A DNA stretch of 48,000 bases, from the NCBI RefSeq assembly GCF_000220565.1, contig NZ_AFPM01000323.1, forward strand, positions 1-48,000, written 5' to 3'. Source of the DNA: Oceanicola sp. S124. Lineage in GTDB: Bacteria > Pseudomonadota > Alphaproteobacteria > Rhodobacterales > Rhodobacteraceae. Below are positions 19,264-34,208 of the stretch, piece by piece (position 1 is the stretch's first letter; every line of letters starts with the position of its first letter). The translations under genes were made by a program, and so were the position numbers. Below the pieces are notes generated by a model. That model ran no database searches and had not been told where the DNA came from. It was given only the letters and a program-made list of their open reading frames with translations.

Positions 19264-20656
19264 CCCTCTTGGCGCTTCCTTCCGAAAACCGTTCGACGAA
19301 CAGGTCGCGGCCTACAAGCTGCGCATGGGCAACCTCGTCCCGACCGCGTCTTGGGATGATGTCTGGCAGGATGCGCACAACACCTCGTTCATGGTGGCTG
19401 GCGCCATGAAGGCTGACCTGCTGGATGACCTCTCCAAAGCGGTCGAGAAGGCTGTTGCCCAGGGCACCACGCTGGAGGAGTTCCGACAGGACTTTCGGTC
19501 GATCGTCGAGACGCACGGCTGGCATGGCTGGACTGGTGAGGGCACTGCCAAAGGCGAGGCCTGGCGAACGCGCGTCATCTACCAGACCAACCTGCGCACC
19601 AGCTACATGGCCGGCCGGCATGCGCAGCTCGTCGAGGGAGGTTATGCCTTCTGGGTCTATCGGCATGGCGGGTCGATGGAGCCTCGCCCTCAGCACCTGG
19701 CATGGGATGGGCTCGTCCTGGCGCCGGATCATGAATTCTGGCTCACCCACTATCCCCCGAACGGTTGGGGCTGCAGCTGCCGTGTCTTCGGTGCGCGGTC
19801 GGAACAGGGAGCGCGGCGAGTTGGGGGCAAGCCGGGCAAACAGTTGCCGGATGGATGGCAGGCACGGGATCCCAGAACGGGCGCCCCAAGCGGCATCGAC
19901 AAGGGCTGGGGCTACGCGCCGGGACGAACAGTCGCGGCCAGAATCACCGATGTCGCAAAGGCAAAGGCGGATCTTCTTCCGCAGCCGCTTCAGGCCCATG
20001 CGCGCCAGTTCGCGGATGACCAGGGCCGATCTGGAGATGCCATGGCCGAGATCCTGAACCGGATCATGGCACATCTGGACGGGGCTTTCGGCACCGAGAT
20101 CCTTACCACTGCGAAGGCCTGGCAAGCACCGAGCTTGAGCGAGGCACAGAAGAGCGTCGTCGCCTCCTACAAGCGGAGTGGTGAGTTTCGCGAGCAGCTT
20201 GACGACTACCTCCGCCAGCGCACCGCCGGCGCGGAAGCCTTGGACAGCGAGCTGGACACGGTTGCCAGGACGCTGGACCAGGCCTTGTCCCGACTGCCCA
20301 GGTACAAGGGGACCGCCTATCGCGATCTCAACCTGGTCGAGCTCGGGCATCAGATCGACCTCCGGCAACTGGCTGCCGGCGACATCCTGAACCTGAGTGG
20401 ATACCTCAGCGCTGAATTGCAGCGACACCGCGTTCCCTTGGGACCGGTGCGCCTGATCATCGAAGGCCTCAGCGGGCGGCGTGTCTCCGGGCCGGGCGAA
20501 GGGGCATGGATCATGCTGCGCCGGGGTTTGCGATATGAGGTCCTGGAAAGCCGTCTTGTCCGCGAAGCCGAGGGCGACCTTCTGCTGCTTCGTGTGCGAG
20601 AACTGGCGCCCAGCGGGCCGCATCCTGACATGAGAGGCGCGCTCGATGCTTTCTGA
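19256..20656 (+). CDS. MuF-like minor head protein with C-terminal ADP-ribosyltransferase-like domain
   Basis: The product has 466 residues. TTG 19256 is chosen because AGGAGG lies six bases upstream, while the in-frame ATG 19208 has no ribosome site and would lie 56 bp inside the portal gene. Residues about 40-190 are the phage Mu F-like (gp30) head morphogenesis domain, with TRVIYQTNLRTSYMAGRHAQ, MEPRPQHLAWDG and the Cys pair in YPPNGWGCSCRVFG. Residues about 330-450 look like an R-S-E class ADP-ribosyltransferase: Arg356 in KGTAYRDLNL, serines in LSGYLSAEL (380-388), and Glu415 in GPGEGAW. The position of the usual second Glu of the ExE motif is Ala417, so activity is doubtful. This is a MuF-toxin type fusion; the domain call is by motif only. 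Confidence 0.72.
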   Translation: MADPLGASFRKPFDEQVAAYKLRMGNLVPTASWDDVWQDAHNTSFMVAGAMKADLLDDLSKAVEKAVAQGTTLEEFRQDFRSIVETHGWHGWTGEGTAKGEAWRTRVIYQTNLRTSYMAGRHAQLVEGGYAFWVYRHGGSMEPRPQHLAWDGLVLAPDHEFWLTHYPPNGWGCSCRVFGARSEQGARRVGGKPGKQLPDGWQARDPRTGAPSGIDKGWGYAPGRTVAARITDVAKAKADLLPQPLQAHARQFADDQGRSGDAMAEILNRIMAHLDGAFGTEILTTAKAWQAPSLSEAQKSVVASYKRSGEFREQLDDYLRQRTAGAEALDSELDTVARTLDQALSRLPRYKGTAYRDLNLVELGHQIDLRQLAAGDILNLSGYLSAELQRHRVPLGPVRLIIEGLSGRRVSGPGEGAWIMLRRGLRYEVLESRLVREAEGDLLLLRVRELAPSGPHPDMRGALDAF

Positions 20657-20732
20657 TCGCTCTTCACTGCAGCGCCATGACGGCCGTCGCCTCGACGCTG
20701 GCCCCCGCCGCCAGAGCTCGATCTGCCCATGA
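20646..20732 (+). CDS. 28-codon mini-cistron linking the MuF-like and gpG-like genes
   Basis: ATG 20646 opens a 28-codon frame overlapping the end of the MuF-like gene; its TGA (20730-20732) overlaps the gpG-like ATG in the ATGA manner. GAGAGG lies ten bases upstream. It fills the only gap in this coupled chain, and the gpG-like gene has no ribosome site of its own. The peptide has no recognisable features, so a role as a translational relay is more likely than a functional product. Confidence 0.3.
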   Translation: MLSDRSSLQRHDGRRLDAGPRRQSSICP

Positions 20733-21244
20733 TCCAGGTTGAACTCCAGGATGCCGAAGTTCGAGCTCTCCTGGATGGGCTCGCGGCCGCCTTGACCGAC
20801 ATGTCCCTGGTCATGGGAGAGATCGGTGAGGCATGGCTCGCATCGACGCAGGATCGCGTGCAAGCCGGGCTGCAGCCGGACGGGACGCCGTTTGCTCCGC
20901 GCTCGCAAACGACGATCGACCGCTACGCCAAAACAGAACAGTCCTACGGCAACCCGCTGAACACCAGCGGTGTGATGCGAAGCCAGATCCATACCTCGCA
21001 CGGCGCCGACTATGTCGAGATCGCCTCGAATGCGATCCAGGCCGCAGTCATGCAGTTCGGTGCCGAGGCCGGTGCCTTCGGTGCCAGGATGGGCAAGAAC
21101 ACCAAGGGCCGAAGCTATTTCTTCTCGATCCCCTGGGGCGACATCCCGGCCCGGCCCTTCCTGGGCATCTCGGATGATGACCGCGAGATGATCTCAGAAA
21201 CCGTCGAAGAATGGCTCAGGCGGGTCGCAGACAAGGGCCAGTAA
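20729..21244 (+). CDS. Phage virion morphogenesis protein (gpG, Mu gp31-like)
   Basis: The 171-residue product fits the virion morphogenesis (gpG) family: GEIGEAWLASTQDRVQAGLQ, PDGTPFAPRSQTTIDRY, LNTSGVMRSQIHTSHG, VMQFGAEAG and PWGDIPARPFLGIS. In Mu gpG is a head/tail completion factor. The start ATG 20729 has no ribosome site, suggesting coupling to upstream translation. Confidence 0.85.
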   Translation: MIQVELQDAEVRALLDGLAAALTDMSLVMGEIGEAWLASTQDRVQAGLQPDGTPFAPRSQTTIDRYAKTEQSYGNPLNTSGVMRSQIHTSHGADYVEIASNAIQAAVMQFGAEAGAFGARMGKNTKGRSYFFSIPWGDIPARPFLGISDDDREMISETVEEWLRRVADKGQ

Positions 21245-21387
21245 CGGCCCCTTTAACACGGGGTCTCGATGATGCTGGAACGCTCGCCCGGATTGCTCTA
21301 CTCATGAGGGCATAGCCAACATGATCCTGTCGCACCCGCAATCCCTTGCGGGTGTTTTCGTATCTGGCGCATCGCGATGATGCTGGC
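21245..21387. other. G-I intergenic region near the prophage centre
   Basis: These 143 non-coding bases separate the gpG-like and protease genes. They contain a terminator (21333-21358) and two exact copies of CGATGATGCTGG (21267-21278 and 21375-21386) on either side of it. In Mu the same gene junction carries the strong gyrase site that organises the prophage for transposition. The position fits here, but the site cannot be recognised from sequence alone. Confidence 0.4.
21333..21358 (+). terminator. Rho-independent terminator after the gpG-like gene
   Basis: CACCCGCAA (21333-21341) pairs perfectly with TTGCGGGTG (21346-21354) around TCCC, followed by TTTT. The arms are almost the same as in the terminator after the early operon. 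Confidence 0.8.
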
Positions 21388-22431
21388 ATGGAAAACGCCA
21401 CCGCCACCCTTGCCGCCATCGAACTGCCGCGTCCTGCCGAAGGGGCGACGGTTCCGGAGTGGATCCAGCTCCTCCCGAAGGGGGAGGTGCAGGCTCGTGA
21501 CGGTCGCGGCCCCTGGCACTACCAGGACGCCAAGGCGGTGATCGAGACCAGCTTCTCGACCCGCCGCAAGATCCACATCGACGAAAACCACTCGACGGAC
21601 ACTGCCGCGAAGCTTGGCATGTCCGCCCCGGCGCGCGGCTTCATCACCGAGATGGAGGAGCGCGACGATGGGATCTGGGGGCGTGTCGACTGGACGGAGA
21701 GTGGCAAGACGCTCCTGGCAGATCGCGCTTACTGGGGCATCTCCCCCGTCCTCTCCTACGACAAGAAGACCGGCAAGGTGTCCGCGATCGCGCGTGCCGC
21801 CCTGACCAATGACCCCGCCCTGCGCGAGCTTCTCGCGCTCAACAGCACGGAGACCAACCACATGTTCGCAGCGAAGGTCGCGAAACTGCTCGGCCTCTCG
21901 GAAGACGCTTCCGAGGACGAGATCATGAAAGCCCTCGGCGCCCGCCTGGAGAAAGTCGGTGAAGGCGAAGAGATGCTGTCCAGCATCGGCACGGCCATGG
22001 GCCTCAGCGGCGAGCTGACCGTCGCCACGCTGGTCGCGACGGCCAAGGGGCTGAAGTCGGCCGGCGGCGAACAGACCGAAGCGCTGGCAACGCTGCAGGC
22101 CGAGGTGAAGGCCCTGCGCGAAGGCAACGCCCGCAAGGCGGCCGAGGATTTCGTTGACGGGGCAATCCGTGACCTGCGTGCCGGCGTCAAGGCCAGCCGC
22201 GAGGACTACGTGACCCTGCATATGGAAAGCCCCGATCGCTGCCAGAAGCTGATCAACGGCCTTCCGAAACTCGACCGCAGCACCACCACCGTGACGCCGC
22301 CCGTGCCCCGCGCCGATGGTGAGGTCGCGCTGAGCAACGACCAGGCCGCCGCCGCGCGCCTGATCGGCGTCGATCCCAAGCTCTACGCTGAAACCCTGAA
22401 GGCCGAAGCGGCCGCCAAGGAGACCGTCTGA
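21388..22431 (+). CDS. Prohead protease with scaffold part (Mu gpI/Z-like)
   Basis: The product has 347 residues. The first about 155 match the Mu gpI protease: PEWIQLLPKGEVQARDGRGP, KIHIDENHSTDT (conserved His), PARGFITEMEERDDGIWGRV, YWGISPVL, and a serine-type core. Residues 159-347 are charged, Ala/Glu-rich and helical, like a scaffold. An internal in-frame ATG at 21862 with GGAGA eight bases upstream could give a separate 189-residue scaffold, as Z is made from I in Mu. The ATG 21388 ribosome site is weak. Confidence 0.85.
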   Translation: MENATATLAAIELPRPAEGATVPEWIQLLPKGEVQARDGRGPWHYQDAKAVIETSFSTRRKIHIDENHSTDTAAKLGMSAPARGFITEMEERDDGIWGRVDWTESGKTLLADRAYWGISPVLSYDKKTGKVSAIARAALTNDPALRELLALNSTETNHMFAAKVAKLLGLSEDASEDEIMKALGARLEKVGEGEEMLSSIGTAMGLSGELTVATLVATAKGLKSAGGEQTEALATLQAEVKALREGNARKAAEDFVDGAIRDLRAGVKASREDYVTLHMESPDRCQKLINGLPKLDRSTTTVTPPVPRADGEVALSNDQAAAARLIGVDPKLYAETLKAEAAAKETV

Positions 22432-22889
22432 TGGCCCCCCTTACCGCAGATCGCAACACGCCTCGCTACGAGGGTGACACCCGCCACGGCCCGCTGGCGG
22501 CCTCGGTCAAGGCCTACGCCGGAGCCCTGCTGATGCGGAACGCCGCCGGTTACCTGGTTGCCGGGCAGACCGCGACCGGCCTGGTCGGCGTCGGCCGCTC
22601 GGAGGCCCAGGTCGACAATGGCGTTGGCTCGGCCGGCGACCTGTCCGTGGCCTACCGCCCCGGCTGCTTCCGCTTTGCCAACTCTGCCGCAGCGGACGAG
22701 GTCACCATCGCCGACATCGGCGAGCTGGCCTACGCGGTCGATGACCAGACCGTGGCCAAGACCGACGGCACCGCTTCCCGCTCGCCCGCCGGCATCATCG
22801 AGGACGTCGACGCCCAGGGCGTCTGGATCCGCCTGGATGAAGCCCTGACCAAGGCCGCAGCCACCGCCGCTGCCGCAGCCGCAGCCTGA
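22431..22889 (+). CDS. Head protein, putative capsid decoration (DUF2190-like)
   Basis: The product has 152 residues and lies between scaffold and major head protein. GPLAASVKAYAGALLMRNAA, GYLVAGQTATGLVGVGRSEA, a central FRFANS and SRSPAGIIEDVDAQGVWIRL form the short beta-rich pattern seen in DUF2190-type capsid stabilisation proteins. The C-terminus is an Ala run. It starts at ATG 22431, overlapping the protease stop by one base. Confidence 0.6.
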   Translation: MAPLTADRNTPRYEGDTRHGPLAASVKAYAGALLMRNAAGYLVAGQTATGLVGVGRSEAQVDNGVGSAGDLSVAYRPGCFRFANSAAADEVTIADIGELAYAVDDQTVAKTDGTASRSPAGIIEDVDAQGVWIRLDEALTKAAATAAAAAAA

Positions 22890-22902
22890 CGAGGACCCCA
22901 CC

Positions 22903-23796
22903 ATGCTTATCAACGCCGCAAATCTCGACAGCCTGCGCGTCGGCTTCAAGACCTCCTTCCAGGGCGGCCTGTCCCAGGCCTCCACCATGTGGGACCGGGT
23001 CGCCACCGAGGTGACCTCGACCCAGAAGGAGCAGAAGTACGGCTGGCTCGGCAAGATGCCGAATGTCCGCGAATGGATCGGCCCGCGCGCCGTTCAGAAC
23101 CTCGCGCAGCACGACTACGCCATCAAGGAAAAGCCCTGGGAACTGACCATCGGCGTCGACCGCGACGACATCGAGACCGACAACCTCGGCATCTACGGCC
23201 CGCTGTTCACCGAAATGGGCCAGTCGACCGGCTCGAAGAAGGACAGCCTGGTCTACGAGCTGCTGAAGGCCGGTTTCACGACCGAATGCTATGACGGCAA
23301 CTACTTCTTCGACACCGACCACACGGTGCTCGACGAGGCAGGCGAAGAAACCTCGGTCAGCAACACCGGCGGTGGCGCTGGCACGCCCTGGTTCCTGCTC
23401 TGCACCAACCGGGCACTGAAGCCGGTGATCCTGCAGAAGCGCAAGGACTTCGAGTTCGTCGCCAAGGACAAGGTCACCGACGACAACGTCTTCAACAACA
23501 AGGAATTCGTCTACGGCGCCGACGCGCGTTTCAACGCGGGCTTCGGCTTCTGGCAGATGGCCTACGGCTCCAAGCAGACCCTGAATGCCGCTGCCTATGG
23601 CACGGCACGGGCGGCGCTCAGTGGCATGAAGGGGGACTATGGCCGTCCCCTGGGCCTGATGCCGAACCTGCTGGTCGTGCCCCCGTCGCTGGAAAGCGCC
23701 GGCCGGAAGATCCTGAATTCCGAGCTGGGGACCGGTGGCGAGACCAACGAGTGGAAGGGCACCGCCGAACTGCTCGTCGTGCCCTGGCTGGCCTGA
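22903..23796 (+). CDS. Major head subunit (Mu gpT-like)
   Basis: The 297-residue product fits the Mu-like major head subunit family: the N-terminal NAANLDSLRVGFKTSFQGGL, TSTQKEQKYGWLGKMP, REWIGPRAVQNL, ELTIGVDRDDIETDNLGIYG, FFDTDHTVLDE, FGFWQMAYGSKQTLNAAAYG and LLVVPPSLE. It forms the capsid shell with the HK97 fold. A strong terminator lies 29 bp downstream, fitting high expression. Confidence 0.93.
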   Translation: MLINAANLDSLRVGFKTSFQGGLSQASTMWDRVATEVTSTQKEQKYGWLGKMPNVREWIGPRAVQNLAQHDYAIKEKPWELTIGVDRDDIETDNLGIYGPLFTEMGQSTGSKKDSLVYELLKAGFTTECYDGNYFFDTDHTVLDEAGEETSVSNTGGGAGTPWFLLCTNRALKPVILQKRKDFEFVAKDKVTDDNVFNNKEFVYGADARFNAGFGFWQMAYGSKQTLNAAAYGTARAALSGMKGDYGRPLGLMPNLLVVPPSLESAGRKILNSELGTGGETNEWKGTAELLVVPWLA

Positions 23797-23825
23797 CGCC
23801 GCAGACGAAGCGGTCAGTTTACCGA

Positions 23826-23850
23826 GGGGCCGGTCCGGCCGGCCCCTTTT
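23826..23850 (+). terminator. Rho-independent terminator after the major head gene
   Basis: GGGGCCGG (23826-23833) pairs with CCGGCCCC (23839-23846) around five bases, followed by TTTT. It probably ends or attenuates the head operon before the tail genes. Confidence 0.8.
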
Positions 23851-23871
23851 GTAAGCTGACAGGAGAGCAAA

Positions 23872-24285
23872 GTGACCGACAAGAGCGCAGAACGCATCGA
23901 TCTCGAAGAGCGTGCCAAGGCTGCCGGCGTGAAGTTCGCCGGCAACATCGGCGATGAGAGCCTGAAGGAACGGGTCGAGGCGGCCGAGGCCGCCGCCAAT
24001 ACCGCACCGGGGACGTCCGACCAGGAAAACCCCGTGGGGTCCACGGAGCAAGTGGTTTCGGATGAGGGCCCGGTACTGGCGGAGGTCCAGACGGCCCCCG
24101 CCACCGAAATCCCGCATGTTCTGGTCATCTCCGGCCCGGCGCGCGGCTTCCGTCGTGCAGGCCGCCGCTTCGGCCCCCAACAGGTCACCATCCCGGTCAA
24201 GGACCTCAGCGACGACGCCTACACCGCGCTGCTCTCCGAACCGGCCCTGACGGTCGTCGAGCTGGGCAAGCCCCAGGGCGACTGA
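23872..24285 (+). CDS. HI1506-like protein (Mu gp35-like)
   Basis: The product has 137 residues, starting at GTG 23872 after AGGAGAG. The N-terminal KAAGVKFAGNIGDESLKERV is a small LEM/SAP-like helical motif. The C-terminal half (GFRRAGRRFGPQQVTIPVKD, then LALTVVEL-like end strands) matches the HI1506/FluMu gp35 domain next to major head genes. The middle is an Asn/Ser/Glu linker. It is probably a head-associated structural protein. Confidence 0.7.
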   Translation: MTDKSAERIDLEERAKAAGVKFAGNIGDESLKERVEAAEAAANTAPGTSDQENPVGSTEQVVSDEGPVLAEVQTAPATEIPHVLVISGPARGFRRAGRRFGPQQVTIPVKDLSDDAYTALLSEPALTVVELGKPQGD

Positions 24286-24420
24286 TCCCCGGCGGGAGGC
24301 CGGCGGGCAGCGGCCGGGATGGGCTCCGAGCCGTGAGAGACGACAGCCCAGCTCCTTCGGGGGCCTGCCCGGCGGCGGGCGATCGCCGCCGGGACCCTCG
24401 CAGCCAGGACCCGCACGACC

Positions 24421-24849
24421 ATGACCTACGCCACCCTCGACCAGCTCACCGACCGTTTCGGCAGCGAGATGCTCGTCAGCCTTACCGATCGCGCCACCGT
24501 GCCGACCGGGGAAGTTGACGTGGATGTGGTCGATCGGGCCCTGGCCGATACCGATGCGGAGATCGATGGCTTCCTGCGTCCCCGCTACGTGCTGCCCCTG
24601 GCCGAGGTGCCGCCGCTGATCGCGGACCTGGCGCTGACCATCGCGATCTACAAGCTGCACCGCTATGCGCCGGATCCGAAGATCGCCGAGGACTACAAGA
24701 TGGCCCGACGCTCCCTGGAAGGGATTTCCAAGGGCGCAATCCGGATTCCGGCTGAAGGCGTCGAGCCCGAGGCCTCCGACACCACCGGCGCACGTATCAC
24801 CGATCGCGAACGGCCCTTCACCGAGGCAAACATGAAGGGCTTCATCTGA
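24421..24849 (+). CDS. DUF1320 family protein (Mu gp36-like head-tail connector)
   Basis: The 142-residue product fits DUF1320: YATLDQLTDRFGSEMLVSLT, VDRALADTDAEIDGFLRPRY, LADLALTIAIYKLHRY and EDYKMARRSLEGISKGAI. It corresponds to Mu gp36, a head-tail connector. The preceding 135 bases are non-coding and GC-rich; only a weak AGGA precedes the ATG. Confidence 0.85.
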   Translation: MTYATLDQLTDRFGSEMLVSLTDRATVPTGEVDVDVVDRALADTDAEIDGFLRPRYVLPLAEVPPLIADLALTIAIYKLHRYAPDPKIAEDYKMARRSLEGISKGAIRIPAEGVEPEASDTTGARITDRERPFTEANMKGFI

Positions 24850-25280
24850 TGCTCGACCTTGTGATCGACCGGCTGAAGGCAGAGGTCTCGACGCTCGAAG
24901 GGCGGGTCGAGGGCGCTGCCAGCTTCACCAGCCTCATGGAGCGCAACGCGCTGCCCCAGGTGACGCCCGCCGCCCATGTCCTTCCCCTGGGACTGACAGG
25001 CGGACAGGCCCAGGCGGCGACCGGGATGTTTACCCAGCTGTTCACCGAGGCCGTGGCCGTGGTCCTCACGATCCGCGGCCATGACCAGACCGGCGCCCGC
25101 GCGCTGTCCAGAGTCGATCCCCTGATCCGGTCGGTCATTTCGGCAATCGCCGGATGGGAACCCGATGACGAGATCGGAACCTTTCAGCTCCGGCGCGGTG
25201 CCCTCGTCAGCATCCGGGCCGGCGCGCTCGTCTACCAGCTCGATTTCACGATCACCGACCAGTTGAGGATCCCGACATGA
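24849..25280 (+). CDS. Mu gp37-like tail terminator protein
   Basis: The product has 143 residues with the gp37/DUF1834 pattern: DLVIDRLKAEVSTLEGRVEG, LPQVTPAAHVLPLG, FTEAVAVVLTIRGHDQTG, and a C-terminal beta strand ALVYQLDFTITDQL. It lies just before tail genes and is likely a tail completion protein. It overlaps its neighbours by one and four bases. Confidence 0.75.
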   Translation: MLDLVIDRLKAEVSTLEGRVEGAASFTSLMERNALPQVTPAAHVLPLGLTGGQAQAATGMFTQLFTEAVAVVLTIRGHDQTGARALSRVDPLIRSVISAIAGWEPDDEIGTFQLRRGALVSIRAGALVYQLDFTITDQLRIPT

Positions 25281-25420
25281 CCAAGAAGCCGCTCCCCCAG
25301 TCCGGTGGCAGCTACAGCCGCGATGAGGCCGGCAGCCTCAAGCAGGAGGTGGCCCCGACCAAGGAAGGGACCACGAAGAAGACCACCTCGCGCAAGACCG
25401 CGACGAAGAAGGAGGGCTGA
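25277..25420 (+). CDS. Small Lys/Thr-rich tail-region protein
   Basis: This is a 47-residue frame starting with an ATGA overlap at 25277 and ending three bases before the tail-tube ATG. The N-terminus TKKPLPQSGGSYSRDEAGSL is followed by a basic tail of Lys, Thr and Arg (KEGTTKKTTSRKTATKKEG). Position corresponds to the very small gp38-like protein of Mu-type tails, but the sequence does not match that family. Its stop-to-start packing supports translation, and its GGAGG provides the ribosome site of the tail-tube gene. Confidence 0.6.
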   Translation: MTKKPLPQSGGSYSRDEAGSLKQEVAPTKEGTTKKTTSRKTATKKEG

Positions 25421-25423
25421 TAG

Positions 25424-26356
25424 ATGCCCATCAAGTGGAAGTCGAAGATCCTGCTCGCGAAGATTGAGGACACCTACGGGACCGACCCGGCGCCGACCGG
25501 CGCGCTAAACGCGGTCCTGGCGAATGACGTTCGCCTGACGCCGATGGAAGGTTCGGACGTCGACCGCGACCTCGAAACGCCCTGGCTGGGCGCCTCCGGC
25601 ACGATGCCGGCCGAGCTTCACGCCACGCTGAACTTCAACGTCGAGATGGCCCCCTCCGGTGCCGCCGGCACAGCACCGGCCTGGGGTCCGCTCCTGCGCG
25701 CCTGTGCAGTGGCCGAGACGATCGAGGCCGGGGTATCCGTCACCTACAACCCGGTGAGCGATGACCACGAAAGTATTACGATCCACCTCCTGATCGGCTC
25801 GACCCGCTACGTCCTTCTCGGCACGCGTGGCAACTGCACGATCCAGCTCGATGCCCAGGGCATTCCCTATCTCGCTTTCGAGTTCACCGGGCTCTTCACC
25901 CAGCCCTCCGAACAGACCCGGCCGACGGTTGCGCTGGACGCCTACAAGAAGCCCCTGCTGGCGACCTCGACGAACACGCCGACCTTCCAGATGAACGGTA
26001 CGGACTTCGTGGCGCGCAGTTTCCGGATGAACCTGGGCAACAGCGTCGAGACCCGTTTCCTGATCGGATCCGAAGGCGTGCTGATCACCGACCGGTCGGA
26101 GACGATCGAGACGGTGGTCGAGGCGCTGGCCCTGACGAGCTTCAACCCCTTCGCCCTGGCCGCCGCCCAGACCGCCGTGGAAGTCGACCTGGTGCATGGT
26201 GTGACCGCCGGCAGCATCGCCGCGCTGAACGTGCCCGGTGCCCAGATGCAACGCCCGCAGGGGCTGGAGAACAGCCAGAACATCAAGGAATGGCCGCTGC
26301 GCCTCGTCCCGCTGCCTGTCACCGGCAACGACCAGTGGACCCTGACCCTCACCTGA
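25424..26356 (+). CDS. Tail tube protein (siphovirus type)
   Basis: The 310-residue product fits the phage tail tube 2 family: ILLAKIEDTYGTDPAPTGAL, VRLTPMEGSDVDRDLETPWL, LNFNVEMAPSGAAGTAPAWG, PLLRACAVAETIEAGVSVTY and VLLGTRGNCTIQLDAQG. It polymerises into the tail tube. No sheath gene of the Mu gpL type is found before it. This is the main evidence for a long non-contractile tail. Confidence 0.82.
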   Translation: MPIKWKSKILLAKIEDTYGTDPAPTGALNAVLANDVRLTPMEGSDVDRDLETPWLGASGTMPAELHATLNFNVEMAPSGAAGTAPAWGPLLRACAVAETIEAGVSVTYNPVSDDHESITIHLLIGSTRYVLLGTRGNCTIQLDAQGIPYLAFEFTGLFTQPSEQTRPTVALDAYKKPLLATSTNTPTFQMNGTDFVARSFRMNLGNSVETRFLIGSEGVLITDRSETIETVVEALALTSFNPFALAAAQTAVEVDLVHGVTAGSIAALNVPGAQMQRPQGLENSQNIKEWPLRLVPLPVTGNDQWTLTLT

Positions 26357-26371
26357 TCCCACGGAGCCCTC

Positions 26372-26701
26372 ATGTTCAAGATCAATGCCGCCCCCGAGTT
26401 CACCCACCCTGTCGTCGTGATGGTCCCCCAGGATGACGGCCACCGTGAGGAGACCTTCAAGGCCCGCTTCAAGGTGCTGCCGGACGACGATGTCGATGGC
26501 TATGACGTGTCGACGAAGGACGGGCTGAAGGAATTCCTGCGCCAGGTCTGGCTCGGGGCCAGCGACATCCAAGACGATGACGGCCAGGCTGTCGCCTGGT
26601 CGATAGACCTGCGCGACCAGCTGCTGGGCCTCCCCTACGTGCGGCTCGCTCTGCTGCGTACCTACATGTCGGCGCTGACCAAGGCCAAGGCGGGAAACTA
26701 A
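26372..26701 (+). CDS. Tail assembly chaperone (G-like)
   Basis: The product has 109 residues. It is acidic and mixed alpha/beta (HPVVVMVPQDDGHREETFKA, EFLRQVWLGASDIQDDDGQA, VRLALLRTYMSALTKAKAGN). Position between tail tube and tape measure fits the lambda gpG role. Its last codons are GCG GGA AAC TAA, placing the slippery heptamer GGGAAAC (26692-26698) right before the stop. A -1 slip would extend it by 116 residues. Confidence 0.75.
   Translation: MFKINAAPEFTHPVVVMVPQDDGHREETFKARFKVLPDDDVDGYDVSTKDGLKEFLRQVWLGASDIQDDDGQAVAWSIDLRDQLLGLPYVRLALLRTYMSALTKAKAGN
26692..26698 (+). promoter_or_regulatory. -1 programmed frameshift site GGGAAAC
   Basis: G GGA AAC is an exact X XXY YYZ slippery heptamer in the zero frame, directly followed by the chaperone stop TAA. 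The -1 frame is open from 26581 to 27045 and has no ATG, GTG or TTG before 26899. GC-rich self-complementary sequence begins about 15 bases downstream. This matches the conserved G/GT frameshift of tailed-phage chaperone genes; lambda uses GGGAAAG. Confidence 0.75.
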
Positions 26702-27048
26702 GGGCGGTCGGGCGGGCCTGGGCGGAGGGCCGGCTCGGCCAGGAAAGCGCTGAGGACGCAGAGGAAGACGCGGATCTCTGGGGCATCGATCTGGAGGTCC
26801 TGAAGCCTGCCAAAGATATCTTCGAGATTTGGTCCGCGCATCTGCCAGCCCTCCAGACCTTCCTGGCGATCTGCACGCAATGGCGGGTCGCGATCGGGAT
26901 GTCCGGCATGGTGACCGTCGGGCTCGACTACGCCTCGGCCGAGGCTGGTCTTCGTCTCTCGGGCGACGTGCCACCGCCTTCGGTCTGGTCGGACCTGAGG
27001 CTGATTGAAAGCGGAGCGCTGGAAGCGCTGAACGAGGACCGGAAATGA
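26698..27048 (+). CDS. DUF1799-like T extension, made by -1 frameshift
   Basis: This 116-residue frame has no start codon of its own at its head. Read after the slip (CTA AGG GCG GTC) it continues the chaperone to a 225-residue fusion. Landmarks are AEDAEEDADLWGIDLEVLKP, FEIWSAHLPALQTFLAICTQ, the segment WRVAIGMSGMVTVGLDYASA, and SVWSDLRLIESGALEALNED. This resembles the DUF1799 family found just before tape-measure genes. Its stop overlaps the tape-measure start (ATGA). The T part should bind the tape measure during tail assembly. A first internal ATG at 26899 would leave only about 49 residues. Confidence 0.75.
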   Translation, partial: LRAVGRAWAEGRLGQESAEDAEEDADLWGIDLEVLKPAKDIFEIWSAHLPALQTFLAICTQWRVAIGMSGMVTVGLDYASAEAGLRLSGDVPPPSVWSDLRLIESGALEALNEDRK

Positions 27049-29507
27049 CAACGGCACTCTCCATCCTGATCCGGGCCGATGGAAAGGCGGCCCAGGCGGA
27101 GCTGCAGAAGCTCTCGGCAAGTGCCGACAAGGCCGGCCTCTCAGTGCAGTCGCTCGGGAAGAAGGGCACCGCCACGGATGCCGAGATCGCAGCGCTGAAT
27201 GCGGAGCTCGCAAAGGCCTCGGCCCAGGTCGAGGTGCTGACCAGCTCCGAGGCCAAGGCCGTCGCCCAGATGGCGCAGATGCAGGCGCAGGTCGACCAGA
27301 TAAACGCCAGGTTCATGGGCATGAACCGCAGCGCCCCCATGGCCGCTGGCAGCATCAGCAACCTCACGGCACAGTTCAACGACCTTGGCGTCATGCTCGC
27401 GGCTGGCCAGAACCCGTTTCAGCTTGCGATCCAGCAGGGTACGCAGATCACCCAGGTCATCGGTCCGATGGGGGCGCGTGGTGCTGTCCGTGCTCTGGGC
27501 ACGGCCTTCCTGTCCCTGCTGAGCCCCGTAAACCTCGTCACACTCGGCGTCATCGCCGGCGGCGCTGCGCTGGTGCAATGGGCGTTCAAGGTCGAAGACG
27601 CGGAAGAGAAAACCCTGACTTTCGCCGAGAAGGTGGACGAGGCGGCCGCTGCAATCGGTCGGGCAGAGCAGGCAGCGGCCTTTGCCAGCATGGGCGGCCT
27701 GGAAGACATGCGGGCCAAGTACGGCGAGATCTCCGACCAGGTGCTGGCCCTGTCGGAACGCCTCTTCGACATCGAACGCCGCGCGGCCGTCGCCAAGGTT
27801 TCGATCGTCCTGGATGATGCGACGGGCGAAAAGTTCGACACGGAGATCGAGCGGATTGCCGGGGCCGTGGGCGCGGCCCTGGCCGGCGCCGGCAGCCAAG
27901 CCAATGCTGAGCAGCTGGAGCTGGCACGGAAAAACCTGCGCGACATCGAGGCCGAGATCGCCACGATGAGTTTCGCAAACCAGTTCACAGGCGACCTTGA
28001 GAAACAGGCTGGGATCTATCGAAATGAGATTGCTGCTCTAGAGGGTGACTTGGGCAACATTGGCGCTCTCGCCCAAGACCTCTCGATTTCCCCGGACTTT
28101 GCGCGTGAGATCGCGGAGATTCGCGCGTCGATCAGCGAAGCGCTCTCCGCTGGCGACCTTGGGGCAGTTGCCGACCAGATTGCCCGGATGCAGGCCGCCC
28201 TGAAGGAAAGCGGTGCGACGATCGATCAGGACGTGGCTGACGGCCTCACCCGCGCCGAAGACCTGGCACGTCAGGCGGCCGCGCAGTTGGCCGAAGGCAA
28301 GGCAAATGCCGAGGGTCTGGCGAACGCCGGCATGGCCTCGGCGATCTCGGCCGCCCGGTCCGAAGCGTCCCGGCTTGCCGACGAGCTGGTCCGCGCCTTC
28401 GAGGCCTCCGCCTCGCTCTCGGCCCAGGGAGTTCGCTCCGTCGAGGAGGCGCAGCTCCGTCTCGACCTGGCCAATGAACCCGTTGAGCTTGCCCGGCAGC
28501 TCGGTGTCCGGCAGATGCAGCAAACGCAGGGCGTGCGTCGCGAAGGTGCCACCGGAGCCGAACTGGCCGCGCTCGATGCTGAAGCCGTCGCCTACGGCAA
28601 CCTCATGGCCCAGGAGGCCGAGCTCAATCAACAGCGCTCGGAGCGCCTGAAGAAGACCAGGAGCAGCGGCGCTGAAACCGATGCGGTTCGCAAGCTCATC
28701 GAGCAGGAGCAGCTGCAGCTCGACCTTCTGCGCGAGACTGACCCCGTCCAGAAGGAGATGATCCGCAACCGAGAAACCCTGGCGTCGGCCACCGAAACTG
28801 AGCGCGCAGAGGTGGAAGCCCTGATCCGCACCAGGATCGAAGAGAACGACGCCCTGACCTCGCTGACACAGCAGCAAGAGTTTTATGCGCAGACGGCATA
28901 TGACGCGATCGATGGCTTGGTCTTCCGCGGGCAGTCGCTCGCCGACACCTTTGCGAGTGTAGCCGACATGATCGGCCAGGCTGTGCTCAAGGCCGCCCTC
29001 CTGGGCGAGGGTCCGCTGGCTGGGATGTTCGGGACCAGCTCGGGTGGTGGCTTGCTGGGCACGCTCTTCTCTGGCCTGACAGGCGGGCTTCAGGCCCGCG
29101 CAGAAGGCGGATATGTCCATGGTCCCGGCGGGGCCAAGTCCGATGATGTGCTCATGTGGGCATCGGCAGGCGAATACGTCATGAACGCCCGCGCCACGCG
29201 CCAGAACCGCCACCTGCTTGAATCGCTGAACGCCGGAGGCCTTCCGGCCTTTGCGCAAGGTGGGTTGGTCGGAGGTGCAGGCGCCGCGAGCGGGTCTCCC
29301 CGCCTCGTCATGCCCGCACCGATCATCAACAATTTCGGCACCGACGACGTCGACGTCGATGTCCAGCCCGACAGCAAAGGTCAGCCGCAGCTGGTCATGA
29401 CCGTCGGCCGGCAGGCCGCAGCTGCAGTCGCTCAGCGTGGCAACCCGCTGCGCCGGACCATGCAGAATGAGTTCGGCCTGCGACCGACGACGAGGAACCG
29501 GGGATGA
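27045..29507 (+). CDS. Tail length tape measure protein
   Basis: The product has 820 residues. The N-terminal region (SILIRADGKAAQAELQKLSA, LTAQFNDLGVMLAAGQNPFQ, LAIQQGTQITQVIGPMG) is the TMP_2 prophage tape-measure pattern. A hydrophobic segment lies at about 166-188 (PVNLVTLGVIAGGAALVQWA). Long Ala/Glu/Leu helical stretches follow. The C-terminus contains ARAEGGYVHGPGGAKSDDVL, typical of tape-measure ends. By the usual 0.15 nm per residue the tail would be around 120 nm, an estimate only. It overlaps the frameshifted T frame by four bases. Confidence 0.9.
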   Translation: MTTALSILIRADGKAAQAELQKLSASADKAGLSVQSLGKKGTATDAEIAALNAELAKASAQVEVLTSSEAKAVAQMAQMQAQVDQINARFMGMNRSAPMAAGSISNLTAQFNDLGVMLAAGQNPFQLAIQQGTQITQVIGPMGARGAVRALGTAFLSLLSPVNLVTLGVIAGGAALVQWAFKVEDAEEKTLTFAEKVDEAAAAIGRAEQAAAFASMGGLEDMRAKYGEISDQVLALSERLFDIERRAAVAKVSIVLDDATGEKFDTEIERIAGAVGAALAGAGSQANAEQLELARKNLRDIEAEIATMSFANQFTGDLEKQAGIYRNEIAALEGDLGNIGALAQDLSISPDFAREIAEIRASISEALSAGDLGAVADQIARMQAALKESGATIDQDVADGLTRAEDLARQAAAQLAEGKANAEGLANAGMASAISAARSEASRLADELVRAFEASASLSAQGVRSVEEAQLRLDLANEPVELARQLGVRQMQQTQGVRREGATGAELAALDAEAVAYGNLMAQEAELNQQRSERLKKTRSSGAETDAVRKLIEQEQLQLDLLRETDPVQKEMIRNRETLASATETERAEVEALIRTRIEENDALTSLTQQQEFYAQTAYDAIDGLVFRGQSLADTFASVADMIGQAVLKAALLGEGPLAGMFGTSSGGGLLGTLFSGLTGGLQARAEGGYVHGPGGAKSDDVLMWASAGEYVMNARATRQNRHLLESLNAGGLPAFAQGGLVGGAGAASGSPRLVMPAPIINNFGTDDVDVDVQPDSKGQPQLVMTVGRQAAAAVAQRGNPLRRTMQNEFGLRPTTRNRG

Positions 29508-29923
29508 TCATGACCTGGCCCACCTCTCTGCCGCGCCCGGAGCGCACATCGTTCCAGAGGCAGCGTCAGGACGCCCGCCGTCGCCGCCAGAGCGAAGCCG
29601 GCCCGCCCGCCTATGGGCGCCGTTTCTCCAGCGCGGCGACCATGGTGACGCTCTCGGTGCTGCTCACCAGGAGCCAACGCGAGGTCTTCGATACCTTCTA
29701 TGTCGAGGACTGCCTCGACGGTTCCCGCCTGTTCAGGATGCCCGATCCGACGACTGAAGGCTGGCCGCTGAAAGACCCCTCTGGCGCCCAGCTCTATGAC
29801 GAGAGCGGCGCCCCTCTGCTCATGTCAGGCAGCTGGCTCTGCGCCTGGGGAGATCAGCCCCCACGCGAGACTGTCCTGGGCATCGAGTTCCGGAAATCCT
29901 TCAACATCGTGGTGATGCCATGA
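29504..29923 (+). CDS. Minor tail protein, unrecognised
   Basis: The product has 139 residues (or 137 from the ATG at 29510). The N-terminal part is basic (RTSFQRQRQDARRRRQSEAG). The second half has FDTFYVEDCLDGSRLFRMPD, GSWLCAWGDQPP and a final beta strand. Position between tape measure and the DUF1833-like gene suggests a distal tail protein. It overlaps its neighbours by four bases. I cannot name a family with confidence. Confidence 0.6.
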   Translation: MIMTWPTSLPRPERTSFQRQRQDARRRRQSEAGPPAYGRRFSSAATMVTLSVLLTRSQREVFDTFYVEDCLDGSRLFRMPDPTTEGWPLKDPSGAQLYDESGAPLLMSGSWLCAWGDQPPRETVLGIEFRKSFNIVVMP

Positions 29924-30444
29924 GACGTGTCAGCCTCAACGCCCGCCAGGCGCAGGACAGCGTGACCTCGCAGGAGATCGAGGTCGTGTTGTTCGAGATC
30001 ACGCATCCAGATCTGGATGAGGTGATCCGGCTTTCCACGGATCCGACCGAGAAGCTGAGCGAAGACCCCTATCTCATGGGTACGCGCTCGACCTGGCGCG
30101 GCGCCGATCCTGCGACCGAGCCCTGGCTCTGGATCGTCGCCTCGACCCTGCTGCCGTCCGATCTGGAGGATGCGCCGGCGAGCTCGACCCTGGTCCTGGA
30201 GAACCTCGACAGTGACATGGTGAGCCTCGTGCGCAGCATCTCGACCCCGCCATCGGTCAACATGGCCGTTGTCCTCGCCGACAGCCCAGACGTCATCGAG
30301 GCCGAGTACCTGGACCTGCAGATCGTCTCGGCCGACATCGATGCCGGCGAGATCGTCTTGTCGATCAGCCGCGACGAGATCGAAGCCGAGCCTTTCCCGT
30401 CCGGCCGCATGACGCGCGAAAGCTTCCCGGGGTTGTTCCTATGA
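29920..30444 (+). CDS. DUF1833-like tail protein
   Basis: The product has 174 residues. RRVSLNARQAQDSVTSQEIE, VVLFEITHPDLDEVIRLSTD, LPSDLEDAPASSTLVLENLD and PDVIEAEYLDLQIVSADIDA are the pattern of DUF1833, found between tape-measure and NlpC/P60 genes in siphovirus-type tails. It is probably part of the tail tip, like lambda gpL or gpM. It overlaps the next gene by four bases. Confidence 0.65.
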   Translation: MRRVSLNARQAQDSVTSQEIEVVLFEITHPDLDEVIRLSTDPTEKLSEDPYLMGTRSTWRGADPATEPWLWIVASTLLPSDLEDAPASSTLVLENLDSDMVSLVRSISTPPSVNMAVVLADSPDVIEAEYLDLQIVSADIDAGEIVLSISRDEIEAEPFPSGRMTRESFPGLFL

Positions 30445-30872
30445 GCTGGTCGAACCGCTTCATCGGTCTGCCCTGGCAGGAGTTCGGGCGTGGCCGCTCT
30501 GGTGCCGATTGCTGGGGGCTGGCCTGCGTCATCTACCAGGAAGAGCTCGGCATCAGCCTGCCGGACTACCTCGGCTATGGCTCGGCCGAGGAGCTTGGCG
30601 AGATCTCTGCCCTGGTCGACGGGGCATTGAACTCGCCGCTCTGGCTTCCGACGGAAGGGCCGGCCATCGCCTTTGACATCGCTGTGTTCCGCCGCGGGCG
30701 CCTCAGCTCGCATATCGGCATCGTCGTTCGCCACGGCCTGATGATCCACATGGAGGGCGAGGATGCCGCCAAGCTCGCCGACTACACCAGCGGTGCCTGG
30801 AAGCACCGTTTGACGGGGCATTACAGGCACTTTGAACGGCCTGTTCAAATCGTCTCGGAGGCCGCCCGATGA
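30441..30872 (+). CDS. NlpC/P60 family tail peptidase
   Basis: The product has 143 residues. The catalytic Cys24 lies in GADCWGL, His91 in SSHIGIVV and a third polar residue His103 in MIHMEG: the NlpC/P60 triad. It corresponds to the lambda gpK position, between minor tail proteins and the J-like gene. It probably cleaves cell-wall peptides at the tail tip during DNA entry. It has no signal peptide, as expected for a virion protein. Confidence 0.85.
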   Translation: MSWSNRFIGLPWQEFGRGRSGADCWGLACVIYQEELGISLPDYLGYGSAEELGEISALVDGALNSPLWLPTEGPAIAFDIAVFRRGRLSSHIGIVVRHGLMIHMEGEDAAKLADYTSGAWKHRLTGHYRHFERPVQIVSEAAR

Positions 30873-33800
30873 AGGATCTCCAGACCCCGGTGCTGGCACT
30901 CCCGCACTTCGACCCTCAGGCCCGACGCATCGCGCGTGAGCTTCCCGCCGGCATGAGCCTCGCAGAGATCGTGAGGGTGACGCTACCGATGCTGCCCGAG
31001 GAAGACCTCCGGCAGTGCCGGGTTGCTCTCGTGACCCCACAGGCCTCCGAGGTCATCCTGCCGGAGCACTGGGCGCGTGTCCGCCCACGTCCGGGCGTCC
31101 ACGTCGTCATTCGGGTGATCTCGGACAAGAGCGCCTTGCGCTCGATCCTCAGCGTTGTGGTCGCGATCGCGGCCGTCGCGGCGGGGCAGTACTGGGCCAT
31201 CGGGGCGATCGGGTCGAGCACCTTCGCAATCTCTTCGGCCCTTATCACCGCCGGGATCACGGTAGTCGGCAACCTCCTGATCAACGCTCTCATTCCGCCC
31301 GTGAAACCCGACGATCGGGACGCGGAAAACCGCTACGCGATCAGCGGCTTCAGAAACACCCTCGATCCAGACGGCGCGGTGCCCATGGTGCTGGGCCAGA
31401 TCCGCTATGCTCCGCCCTTCGCCGCGCTCAGCTACTCCGAGATCGTGGGCGACTGGCAGTACATCCGGACCGCCTTCAACTTCGGCGAAGGTCAGGTCGG
31501 GATTTCGGACATCAGGATCGGTGAGACCTCCATCAGCGAGTTCACCAACGTCGAGACCGAGACCCGGGCCGGTCTCGCTGGCGACCTGCCGCTGAGCCTG
31601 TACCCCCAGCAGGTCGCCGAAGAGGCAATCTCGGTCGAGCTGACCCGGCCGCTTCCCCGCGATGAGCTGGGCGAGATCATCGAGGATGATCCCTCGATCG
31701 AAACGCCCGTGGTGCGCACCACGGGTGCAGATGCCGCCGGCGCGTCGGTGATCCTGTCTTTCCCCTCCGGCCTGGTGCGCTTCAACGATGAGGGGAAGAA
31801 GCGGACTGAGGAGGTCGCCGTTCGGATCGAACATCGCCTGGCGGAAGCCGAGGAATGGCAGGAAGTGGAGACCCTCGAAATCCGCGGCCAGAAGCTGGAG
31901 AGTTTCTATCGGCAGCACACCTGGACCTTCCCGAGCCGGGGGCGCTGGCAAGTGCGCCTCATCATGCTGACCGATGAGACGACCGACAGCCAGCGCCAGC
32001 GCCGCTGCACATGGGCAGCGCTCCATACCCTTCGCCCGGAGTATCCGCTGAACTACCCCCGGCCCCTGGCGCTCATCTCGGCGCGCATCAAGGCCACTCA
32101 CCAGCTTTCCGGGGCGCTCGACAACTGCTCGGCCTTCGTCCAGCGGATTTGCCTCGACTATGACAGCGCGACCGGCACCTGGATCGAGCGGGCGACCTCG
32201 AACCCGGCGTCCCTCTATCGCTACGCCTTGCAGAGCCCGGCGCAGCAGAGGGCCGTTGCAGACGCCGGGATCGACCTGCAGCAGTTGGAGGAATGGCACA
32301 ACTTCTGCAGGCTCAAGAACCTGAAATATGACCGCGTGCAAGACAAGGTGCAGACGCCCCTGCGCGAGGTGCTGACCGAGATCGCGGCAGCCGGGCGGGC
32401 GACGCCGCGCCACGACGGGGTCAAATGGGGGGTGACGATCGACCGCGCTCAGGATCTGGTCGTGGATCACATCAGCCCGCGCAACAGCTGGGACTTCCGC
32501 TGCACCCGGACGTATTTCACGCCGCCCCACGCTTTCAAGGTCAAGTTCCTGGATGCGACCAATGACTTCAAGCCGGCCGAGCGCATCATCCGCTGGCCGG
32601 GCTACGAGGGAGAGATCCTCACCACCGAGGGCCTGGAGCTGCCGGGCAAGACCGACCCCGACGAGATCTGGATCGAAGCCCGCCGGCGCATGTACGAGGC
32701 GATCTACCGCCCCGACGTCTACCAGGCGACCCAGACCGGTCACCTTCGAACCGCGACCCGTGGCGACAAGGTCATGGTCAGCCACGACGTCCTGGACAAG
32801 TTCCAACGGGCCGCCCGGGTGAAGAGCATCGTCGGGCGCCTGGTCGAACTGGATGAGCGGATCTCGATGCAAGCCGGGGAAAGCTATGCCATCCGATTCC
32901 GCGTCTTTGCCGACGAGGAAGACACCATCGGGCAATCCGTGGTGCGGACTGTCCGCACCGACGAGAACGCCCGGTCGGTCATCTATGTCCAGGGCGAGGA
33001 CAGCATGCCGACCGCAGGGGACCTGGTTCATTTCGGTATCGCCGGCGTCGAGAGCTTCCCGGCCATCGTGAACCGGGTCGAAGCCACCGAGGACGGGCAC
33101 TCGATCCTCTACATGCTGGACGAGGCCACGATCATCGACGAACTCCTCGATGCCGATACCGTGCCGGCATGGTCCGGGCGCGTCGGGGCCGAGATCGATG
33201 AGAACCTCCTGCAGCCGTCGGCGCCCCGTTTCGTCTCCGTGGCGACGGGAATCTCGGGGACCGGCAGCGCCAACCTGGTCGAATACCTCCTGGAGCCCGG
33301 CAGCGGCGCCGTCGCCACGGCCGAGTACGAGATCTGGCACCGGCTGACGTCCTCGGGTGAATGGACCGAGGTGACCGTGGCTGTGGCCACCGGCGGCGGA
33401 ACCCTCACGAGCTATTCTGCGGGCAACACGATCGAGCTGCAGGCACGAGGGATCTCCTCCACCGGTCAGATCGGCCCCTGGACCGGGACCGTCGTAGTCG
33501 TGGTCGGAGAAGCTGATGCGGATATCCCCGCTGCACTTGACGACGACGCGATCGACATCACCACCCTCCTGGGCGGGGCCCTGATCCAGGTGGCCACCGG
33601 CACCGACACGGCCACGACGGGCTTGCAGGTCTACCGGTCGCAAAGCGCCACGCTCGATCGGGAGACCGATGCGGCTGGCGCACGGATCGCGGTCACGCCG
33701 CTACAGAGCTACTCCATCACCCTTGGCGACACTACGCGGGAGGAACTGGTCACCGGCGGCAATATGGATACCGCCGCGAGTTGGACGGCCGACGCCAACT

Positions 33801-34198
33801 GGGCGATCTCCGGAGGCGTTGCGCAGCACACGGCCGGTGCAGCAGACACCGTCTCGCAGGCCTTCGAAACCACCGCCGGCAAGTGGTATCGGATCAGCCA
33901 TGACGTCTCGGGTCGCACCGCCGGCACCGTCACGCCACGCCTGACCGGCGGCTCTGTCCGGGCAGGCAGTCCCGCTGGCGCCGACGGCCAGTTCGCTGAC
34001 CGGATCCAGGCAACGACCGGCAACGACACGCTGTCCTTCCTGGCATCTGCCGACTTCAACGGGGCATTGGACAACCTTTCCGCCTACCTCGAAACCGACG
34101 CCTGCCTTGCACAGGGGGCGCATTTCATCTGGATCGAGCCACAGAACGAGGACGGTCTGCCCGGCCCCGTCAGTGGCCCGTTCCTGATCACCATCTAG
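30869..34198 (+). CDS. TipJ/J-like tail tip host-specificity protein
   Basis: The product has 1109 residues. The N-terminal 85 residues are followed by a hydrophobic region at about 92-147 (ILSVVVAIAAVAAGQYWAIG, ITAGITVVGNLLINALIPPV). Next come NRYAISGFRNTLDPDGAVPM, VLGQIRYAPPFAA and FNFGEGQVGISDIRIGETSI, the TipJ family core. Fibronectin-like repeats lie near 795-885. A beta-sandwich, carbohydrate-binding-like module lies at about 964-1075 (NMDTAASWTADANWAISGGV). It forms the tail tip and central fibre that contacts the host. It overlaps the peptidase gene by four bases. Confidence 0.87.
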   Translation: MKDLQTPVLALPHFDPQARRIARELPAGMSLAEIVRVTLPMLPEEDLRQCRVALVTPQASEVILPEHWARVRPRPGVHVVIRVISDKSALRSILSVVVAIAAVAAGQYWAIGAIGSSTFAISSALITAGITVVGNLLINALIPPVKPDDRDAENRYAISGFRNTLDPDGAVPMVLGQIRYAPPFAALSYSEIVGDWQYIRTAFNFGEGQVGISDIRIGETSISEFTNVETETRAGLAGDLPLSLYPQQVAEEAISVELTRPLPRDELGEIIEDDPSIETPVVRTTGADAAGASVILSFPSGLVRFNDEGKKRTEEVAVRIEHRLAEAEEWQEVETLEIRGQKLESFYRQHTWTFPSRGRWQVRLIMLTDETTDSQRQRRCTWAALHTLRPEYPLNYPRPLALISARIKATHQLSGALDNCSAFVQRICLDYDSATGTWIERATSNPASLYRYALQSPAQQRAVADAGIDLQQLEEWHNFCRLKNLKYDRVQDKVQTPLREVLTEIAAAGRATPRHDGVKWGVTIDRAQDLVVDHISPRNSWDFRCTRTYFTPPHAFKVKFLDATNDFKPAERIIRWPGYEGEILTTEGLELPGKTDPDEIWIEARRRMYEAIYRPDVYQATQTGHLRTATRGDKVMVSHDVLDKFQRAARVKSIVGRLVELDERISMQAGESYAIRFRVFADEEDTIGQSVVRTVRTDENARSVIYVQGEDSMPTAGDLVHFGIAGVESFPAIVNRVEATEDGHSILYMLDEATIIDELLDADTVPAWSGRVGAEIDENLLQPSAPRFVSVATGISGTGSANLVEYLLEPGSGAVATAEYEIWHRLTSSGEWTEVTVAVATGGGTLTSYSAGNTIELQARGISSTGQIGPWTGTVVVVVGEADADIPAALDDDAIDITTLLGGALIQVATGTDTATTGLQVYRSQSATLDRETDAAGARIAVTPLQSYSITLGDTTREELVTGGNMDTAASWTADANWAISGGVAQHTAGAADTVSQAFETTAGKWYRISHDVSGRTAGTVTPRLTGGSVRAGSPAGADGQFADRIQATTGNDTLSFLASADFNGALDNLSAYLETDACLAQGAHFIWIEPQNEDGLPGPVSGPFLITI

Positions 34199-34208
34199 GA
34201 GCGCATTG

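Follow-up and report, generated by a model that had tools for sequence, protein, structure and literature searches.

In phage lambda, the tail chaperone gene pair carries the slippery heptamer GGGAAAG, and G and the fusion product are made at a ratio of about 30:1. Frameshifting by -1 in this gene pair is reportedly conserved in long-tailed phages, an observation attributed to Xu (2004). The shift occurs at a heptamer of the form X_XXY_YYZ, and gpG is found both free and as the N-terminal part of gpGT (PMC5009743). Heptamers that adjoin a stop have been described in Burkholderia phage KL1, where GGGAAAC lies immediately upstream of TGA in gp18/gp19 (PMC3483164), and in Acinetobacter phage Loki, where AAAAAAC occupies the corresponding position in gp12/gp13 (PMC5313236). 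In an HK97-like tail chaperone cluster, frameshifting was measured at 6 and 7% for two cassettes (PMC3711429). As far as their published descriptions go, the authors found no frameshift signal at the chaperone of the Mu-like phage KS10 (PMC2628397) or at that of RcZahn (PMC8601537), and the mechanism is therefore not universal in tail-chaperone genes.

A link between such sites and the Pfam family DUF1799 is already visible in Rhodobacter phage RcapMu, which is Mu-like and whose tail is flexible and non-contractile (PMC8601537). Its record (NC_016165, gp49/gp50) marks a "potential -1 frameshift" beside a "DUF1799-containing protein", so the connection between DUF1799 and frameshifting is not new; in the same record, T nevertheless remains a CDS of its own, short at the N terminus. 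In Serratia phage Smarc2 (MT980831), the "pre-tape measure frameshift protein" is annotated as a two-piece CDS that joins G and T. Conversely, the accessible text of PMC9658991 lists the chaperone and the DUF1799 protein as two genes, and the word frameshift is absent from that text. A search of one paper collection found no statement of a rule by which DUF1799 is the frameshifted T.

The window, that is, the whole stretch of 48,000 nucleotides of Oceanicola sp. S124 DNA that was analyzed, contains a G/T pair located between the tail tube and tape measure genes (Table 1). A Mu-like head module (Portal_Mu, Phage_Mu_F, and Mu-like_gpT) is followed by a siphophage-type tail module consisting of a tail terminator, the tail tube, G/T, the tape measure, and an ORF that carries a J-like tip domain. 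The prophage, at positions 15944 to 34198, is a mosaic of Mu-type portal and head genes with a siphophage tail module, similar in kind to RcapMu. An ORF of 964 aa at positions 34206 to 37100 combines a tail-collar domain with a C-terminal SASA (sialic acid-specific acetylesterase-like) domain and is possibly a tail fiber with an esterase head.

The prophage pair shares with lambda the order of tail tube, G, T, and tape measure as well as a -1 heptamer of the X_XXY_YYZ type. Unlike in lambda, the stop directly follows the heptamer, the heptamer is GGGAAAC rather than GGGAAAG, and T is a DUF1799 protein, not a Phage_tail_T protein. Judged from its sequence, the pair is a chaperone of the lambda G/GT type and is not new in kind; the chaperone logic proposed in the preliminary description holds on gene order, the -1 frame, the in-phase heptamer, and the relatives. 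RcapMu has the same GGGAAAC-stop with DUF1799 downstream, but its stop is TGA instead of the TAA of the window, and its T is 34.7% identical to the window T over 96% of the length. KL1 and Loki, compared here by their published descriptions, resemble the window in that the heptamer adjoins the zero-frame stop of the chaperone; unlike in the window, a further tail gene separates GT from the tape measure in both. Smarc2 encodes a similar T (tblastn E 3e-3; phrog_680) but has AAAAAAC before TGA.

Table 1. Features of the G/T locus, in window coordinates
Feature	Position	Strand	Basis
Tail tube protein gene, directly upstream of G	25424..26356	+	Pfam Phage_tube_2 E 1.3e-10, 41.8 bits, cut-off 27
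G, tail assembly chaperone, 109 aa, zero-frame product	26372..26701	+	phrog_569 E 2.2e-21; Phage_TAC_4 E 0.031
AAGG, weak Shine-Dalgarno (SD)-like element, 11 to 8 bases before the heptamer	26681..26684	+	Sequence; -3.0 kcal/mol in the window
Slippery heptamer GGGAAAC, zero frame G_GGA_AAC	26692..26698	+	Sequence; GGGAAAC or AAAAAAC kept in nearly all relatives
T extension, -1 frame past the slip, 116 codons and stop	26698..27048	+	Open frame, start-codon scan
Zero-frame stop TAA, adjoining the heptamer	26699..26701	+	Sequence; same adjacency in 49/58 and 82/88 deduplicated loci
Predicted hairpin, spacer of 7 bases, possible frameshift stimulator	26706..26740	+	Fold of 26704-26763
DUF1799 (PF08809) domain in T	26812..27027	+	E 1.1e-11, 45.2 bits, cut-off 26
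Tape measure protein, start overlapping the T stop (ATGA)	27045..29507	+	TMP_2 E 1.3e-14; phrog_25241 1253 bits

Read directly, the end of G is GCG GGA AAC TAA, with the heptamer in the zero-frame phase G_GGA_AAC. The -1 frame is free of stops from 26581 (the previous stop lies at 26578) to the TGA at 27046-27048; past the slip it reads GK followed by 116 residues, continuing with CTA AGG GCG, and its stop overlaps the tape measure ATG at 27045. The heptamer in the zero frame right before the chaperone stop, and a shifted frame that enters a 116-residue T and ends at the tape measure start, had both been described beforehand and agree with these positions. GGGAAAC occurs twice on the plus strand of the 48,000-nucleotide window and not at all on the minus strand, and of its 216 other frames that span 100 codons or more from stop to stop, counted on both strands, none has any X XXY YYZ heptamer directly before its stop. 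As the sequence reads, it is very probable that two products of one gene are made by -1 slippage at G_GGA_AAC, DUF1799 being the C-terminal part of a predicted G-T fusion of 225 residues (109+116). The site, its phase, and its conservation come from sequence comparison; that ribosomes slip here, and at what rate, we infer.

Most ribosomes would stop at TAA and release the G chaperone. A minority would re-pair tRNA-Gly and tRNA-Asn one base back in tandem, from GGA AAC to GGG AAA, and read on in the -1 frame to produce the fusion. Since the A-site tRNA-Asn has already read AAC in tandem slippage, the main junction residue would be Asn (...KAKAG-N-LRAV); the junction AKAG-K-LRAV that had been predicted earlier has to be amended, as Lys is expected from single-tRNA slippage only. 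With an AAC ending of the slip site, the frameshifting rate may be low (PMC5009743). If the lambda model applies here, the tape measure protein would be coated by many copies of G, and the rare GT would use its T part to recruit the tail tube protein, the tube then polymerizing around the tape measure (PMC5009743).

To survey relatives, the DUF1799 Pfam model was searched in 60 nearest-relative genomes, 385 genomes of the class, and 398 genomes of the phylum, each sample including the window's own genome; 4, 18, and 30 genomes, respectively, had a match at E<=0.001. Set 1 (66 loci) comprises the window copy (L003), loci from these genome searches, including 30 of the 39 places listed by the phylum search, and 15 phages; 58 loci were left after removal of near-copies. 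For the phages, 16 of 32 matched records were taken, RcapMu being present twice. Two members of set 1, L041 and L072, fall short of the Pfam cut-off for DUF1799. Set 2 comprises 128 closer loci, namely, 80 of 189 viral matches and 48 genome loci (88 after deduplication), and includes L087, an IMG/VR copy of the window's phage; the window copy is counted once per set. At the junction, the search patterns of set 2 contained KL for viral sequences and GKL for genomes, a choice that favors conserved junctions and leaves the codons free, and the two sets overlap in taxa. The counts leave out a locus that matched in G only (L008) and S-LBS1 (L025), the latter showing AAAAAAC-TGA. When genome contigs were searched with the tape measure, no relative was confirmed.

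All 66 loci of set 1 combine an upstream frame of 75 codons or more with DUF1799 in its -1 frame, and all have an in-frame heptamer (66/66); the same holds for the heptamer in set 2 (128/128). Relatives lacking the heptamer, which the preliminary description had named as grounds for refutation, were thus not encountered. After deduplication, set 1 contains 36 AAAAAAC, 20 GGGAAAC, 1 AAAAAAT, and 1 AAAAAAG (a count that required AAA as the YYY triplet, a restriction not applied in the scan of the 66 loci), and set 2 contains 78 GGGAAAC and 10 AAAAAAC. The single AAAAAAG belongs to L063, on the reverse strand, which has about 5 extra residues before the conserved T helix and a stop six codons on; AAAAAAG is a slip type reported as highly shift-prone in E. 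coli. Loci with DUF1799 and the heptamer are spread over many families of the host's phylum, and the phages infect Pseudomonas, Serratia, Stenotrophomonas, Xanthomonas, Acinetobacter, and Synechococcus. The identification of DUF1799 as a T extension therefore stands, but its earlier restriction to this phage type does not, as it applies to all DUF1799 loci examined.

Among other ORF ends in the 58 deduplicated loci, window included (frames of 100 codons or more between two stops, either strand), any heptamer followed by a stop was found in 2/652, and GGGAAAC or AAAAAAC followed by a stop in 0/652. This result, together with the 0/216 in the window, indicates that the slip site is not a by-product of base composition. 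The GGG and AAA types interchange at least 9 times on the T tree, which is poorly resolved, with 2 of the changes forced by strongly supported branches, and in the zero frame Asn is preceded by Gly in one type and by Lys in the other; hence, it is slipperiness that is conserved, not the peptide. All 48 genome loci of set 2 read GGG AAA at the junction, where the search pattern allowed any Gly and Lys codons; elsewhere in set 2, GGA accounts for 34 of the 495 Gly codons of G, and AAA for 121 of the 419 Lys codons of G and T. The six or more A residues of the AAAAAAC types would suit a change of frame by transcriptional slippage at a run of A. However, transcriptional slippage usually requires a longer single-base run, the window and the GGGAAAC loci (20/58 and 78/88) lack any long run of this kind, and re-pairing of tRNAs is what the conserved X XXY YYZ phase suggests, making a transcriptional origin extremely improbable.

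The conserved part of T begins at the slip. Residue 3 of T is Leu in 56 of the 58 aligned T frames and is followed by a KLxxAARxW-like motif, and in the AlphaFold model of T, residues 2-11 form a helix, with a mean pLDDT of 96 for the first ten residues compared with 91 for the whole model. In six close pairs of loci, 11 bases differ in the stretch from the slip to the first start codon, 9 of them at third codon positions, although the numbers are small. In the window, the first 69 codons of T past the slip contain no ATG, GTG, or TTG; the first such codon in the -1 frame, at 26899, is residue 70 of 118 and lies within the DUF1799 match (residues 41-112). A startless stretch had been claimed for the first two thirds of the downstream frame: the stretch exists, but it covers about 59% of T.

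These observations bear on whether T might instead be a separate gene with a start of its own, coupled to the end of G, the heptamer being incidental. Annotations of 16 distinct phages could be taken that way: T is a CDS of its own beginning past the junction in 12, starts from CTG in 2, is joined to G in 1, and is not recognizable in 1 (S-LBS1). Moreover, most relatives hold an ATG, GTG, or TTG past the slip and before the end of the Pfam match. Yet in 49 of the 58 loci the first of these codons comes only after residue 12, past the KLxxAARxW helix, and in 13 it lies beyond 40% of T, in addition to the absence of any before residue 70 in the window. The CTG used for phages RC1 and RS1 (L012 and L013, position 1507) consists of the last C of the heptamer and two bases of the TGA stop of G that it overlaps; this start cannot be general because the same codon in the window is CTA. 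Coupling needs no heptamer, whereas all loci have one in phase. A separately initiated T is accordingly very unlikely, and the 12 separate CDSs bear out the earlier expectation that gene callers truncate T.

The DUF1799 assignment of the T part, made in the preliminary description, is borne out by a score above the curated Pfam cut-off (Table 1), and DUF1799 is matched by 72/72 members of a T alignment. This alignment (A5, 72/88 loci) and a second one (A6, 67/88), in both of which the window replaces its copy, were used for the structure models and the DUF1799 match count. For G, the alignment (A2) covers 50/58 loci, 8 with unsure starts having been dropped. Pfam Phage_TAC_4 (PF08748) scores 14.9 bits against the window G, below its cut-off of 21.1, and matches 24/50 of the aligned G relatives at E<=0.01; phrog_569 matches the window G and 48/50 G in all. 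A third profile, phrog_17368 (213 positions), matches 15/50 G and 31/58 T, and in three loci G aligns to positions ~1-107 and T to ~107-211 of this one profile; neither G nor T of the window itself matches it at E<=0.01. A single profile that spans G and T implies that PHROG contains fused proteins, either as joined entries or as natural fusions. PHROGs 569, 680, and 17368, which match G, T, and both, respectively, are all labeled "tail length tape measure protein"; for these families, the label is probably wrong, a carried-over error.

Two frames under one profile would also be left by a disrupted gene or by a sequencing error that cut one ORF in two. The survey contradicts such damage, since the same split recurs with a slippery heptamer in all loci examined, and the chance that a broken gene is involved is practically negligible. 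On the heptamer survey, the phase, and the start-codon evidence, an independently initiated T, transcriptional slippage, and a broken gene were all rejected.

A relationship to the T of lambda was sought as well. An hhalign comparison of 58 DUF1799 T sequences with 13 Phage_tail_T (PF06223) sequences (13 of 14 loci, the one without a heptamer being left out) gave a probability of 0.7%, that is, no detectable similarity; a distant common origin is conceivable. Homology of DUF1799 to lambda T was dropped on this result. The T parts of different phage groups may therefore be unrelated in sequence. PF06223 itself had no match at E<=0.001 in the window's genome. Foldseek searches of the PDB with the G and T models returned nothing at E<=0.001. 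Compared with the sequences of solved structures, the T profile gave weak matches to ribosomal protein L20 only (best E 0.0048), and the G profile gave chance-level matches only (best E 0.084). Among predicted viral structures, the G model had 4 matches at E<=0.001, none with a chaperone name; its matches to predicted structures named "tape measure chaperone" had E values of 0.0085 (phage Solomon) and of 0.092 and 0.17 (phage Scapp).

The slip site could be assisted by signals on both sides. In E. coli dnaX, an SD sequence lies 5' and a stem-loop 3' of the slip site (PMC5009743), and the DUF1799 loci resemble this layout, with an SD-like element upstream and structure downstream. Pairing with the anti-SD sequence peaks, as a family average, in 9-base windows starting at -15 and -12 from the heptamer; the 9-base stretch that starts at -3 and includes the G run of the heptamer itself pairs equally strongly in set 2. 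Pairing exceeds that of control windows in the same gene in 44/58 loci (p 6e-5) and 74/88 loci (p 1.6e-11), p values that are optimistic owing to shared ancestry. Downstream, the mean fold z in set 1 is -1.53 for the 60 bases starting 12 past the first base of the heptamer, compared with -0.01 and -0.11 at upstream positions and with -0.5 to -0.6 at positions farther downstream. The corresponding mean in set 2 is -1.23, versus -0.30 to 0.09 at five other positions, and paired tests against two other positions give p values of 1.6e-8 and 2e-6, again optimistic because the loci share ancestry. In the window, the pairing of the AAGG element is unremarkable, and the fold of 26704-26763 (-29 kcal/mol, z -1.35) was equaled by 22/200 shuffles and so is not significant in the window alone. 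Thus, both signals are clear as family averages but not in the window by itself.

The heptamer adjoins the zero-frame stop in 49/58 loci of set 1 and 82/88 loci of set 2 (both deduplicated); the zero-frame stop is TGA in 40/58 and 82/88 loci and TAA in the window. In the other 9 loci of set 1, the heptamer precedes the stop by 1 to 35 codons, a layout that, taken alone, is less strong as evidence; 7 of these 9 have the KL of the T motif behind the heptamer in register, and the Leu is missing from L063 and L072. As a positive control, the lambda-T family (PF06223) has an in-frame heptamer in the overlap in 13/14 loci, 0 to 20 codons from the stop, and the stop adjoins the heptamer in 1/14 only. 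A stop adjacent to the slip site allows a release factor to compete with slippage: when a stop was placed after the HIV slip sequence in a bacterial system, frameshifting fell, and additional RF2 abolished it (PMC4373837). It is conceivable, if rather doubtful, that DUF1799-type sites form a distinct class, RRRAAAC-stop, in which a release factor competes with E/P-site slippage and the GT:G ratio depends on its activity, unlike at lambda-T sites, where the stop is usually several codons farther downstream. The adjacency may instead simply reflect the need of T for a Leu (CTN) at this point, or economy.

For the family, these findings give a "domain of unknown function" a likely role: in all loci of the survey, DUF1799 lies in the -1 frame behind a slip site at the end of a chaperone gene. 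Automatic annotation can use the rule that DUF1799 is preceded by RRRAAAC, in most cases with a stop behind the heptamer, and separate DUF1799 gene calls that start past the junction, as in the 12 of 16 phages, are probably truncated. Finally, the stop-adjacent geometry offers a natural test of the competition between termination and -1 slippage in bacteria.
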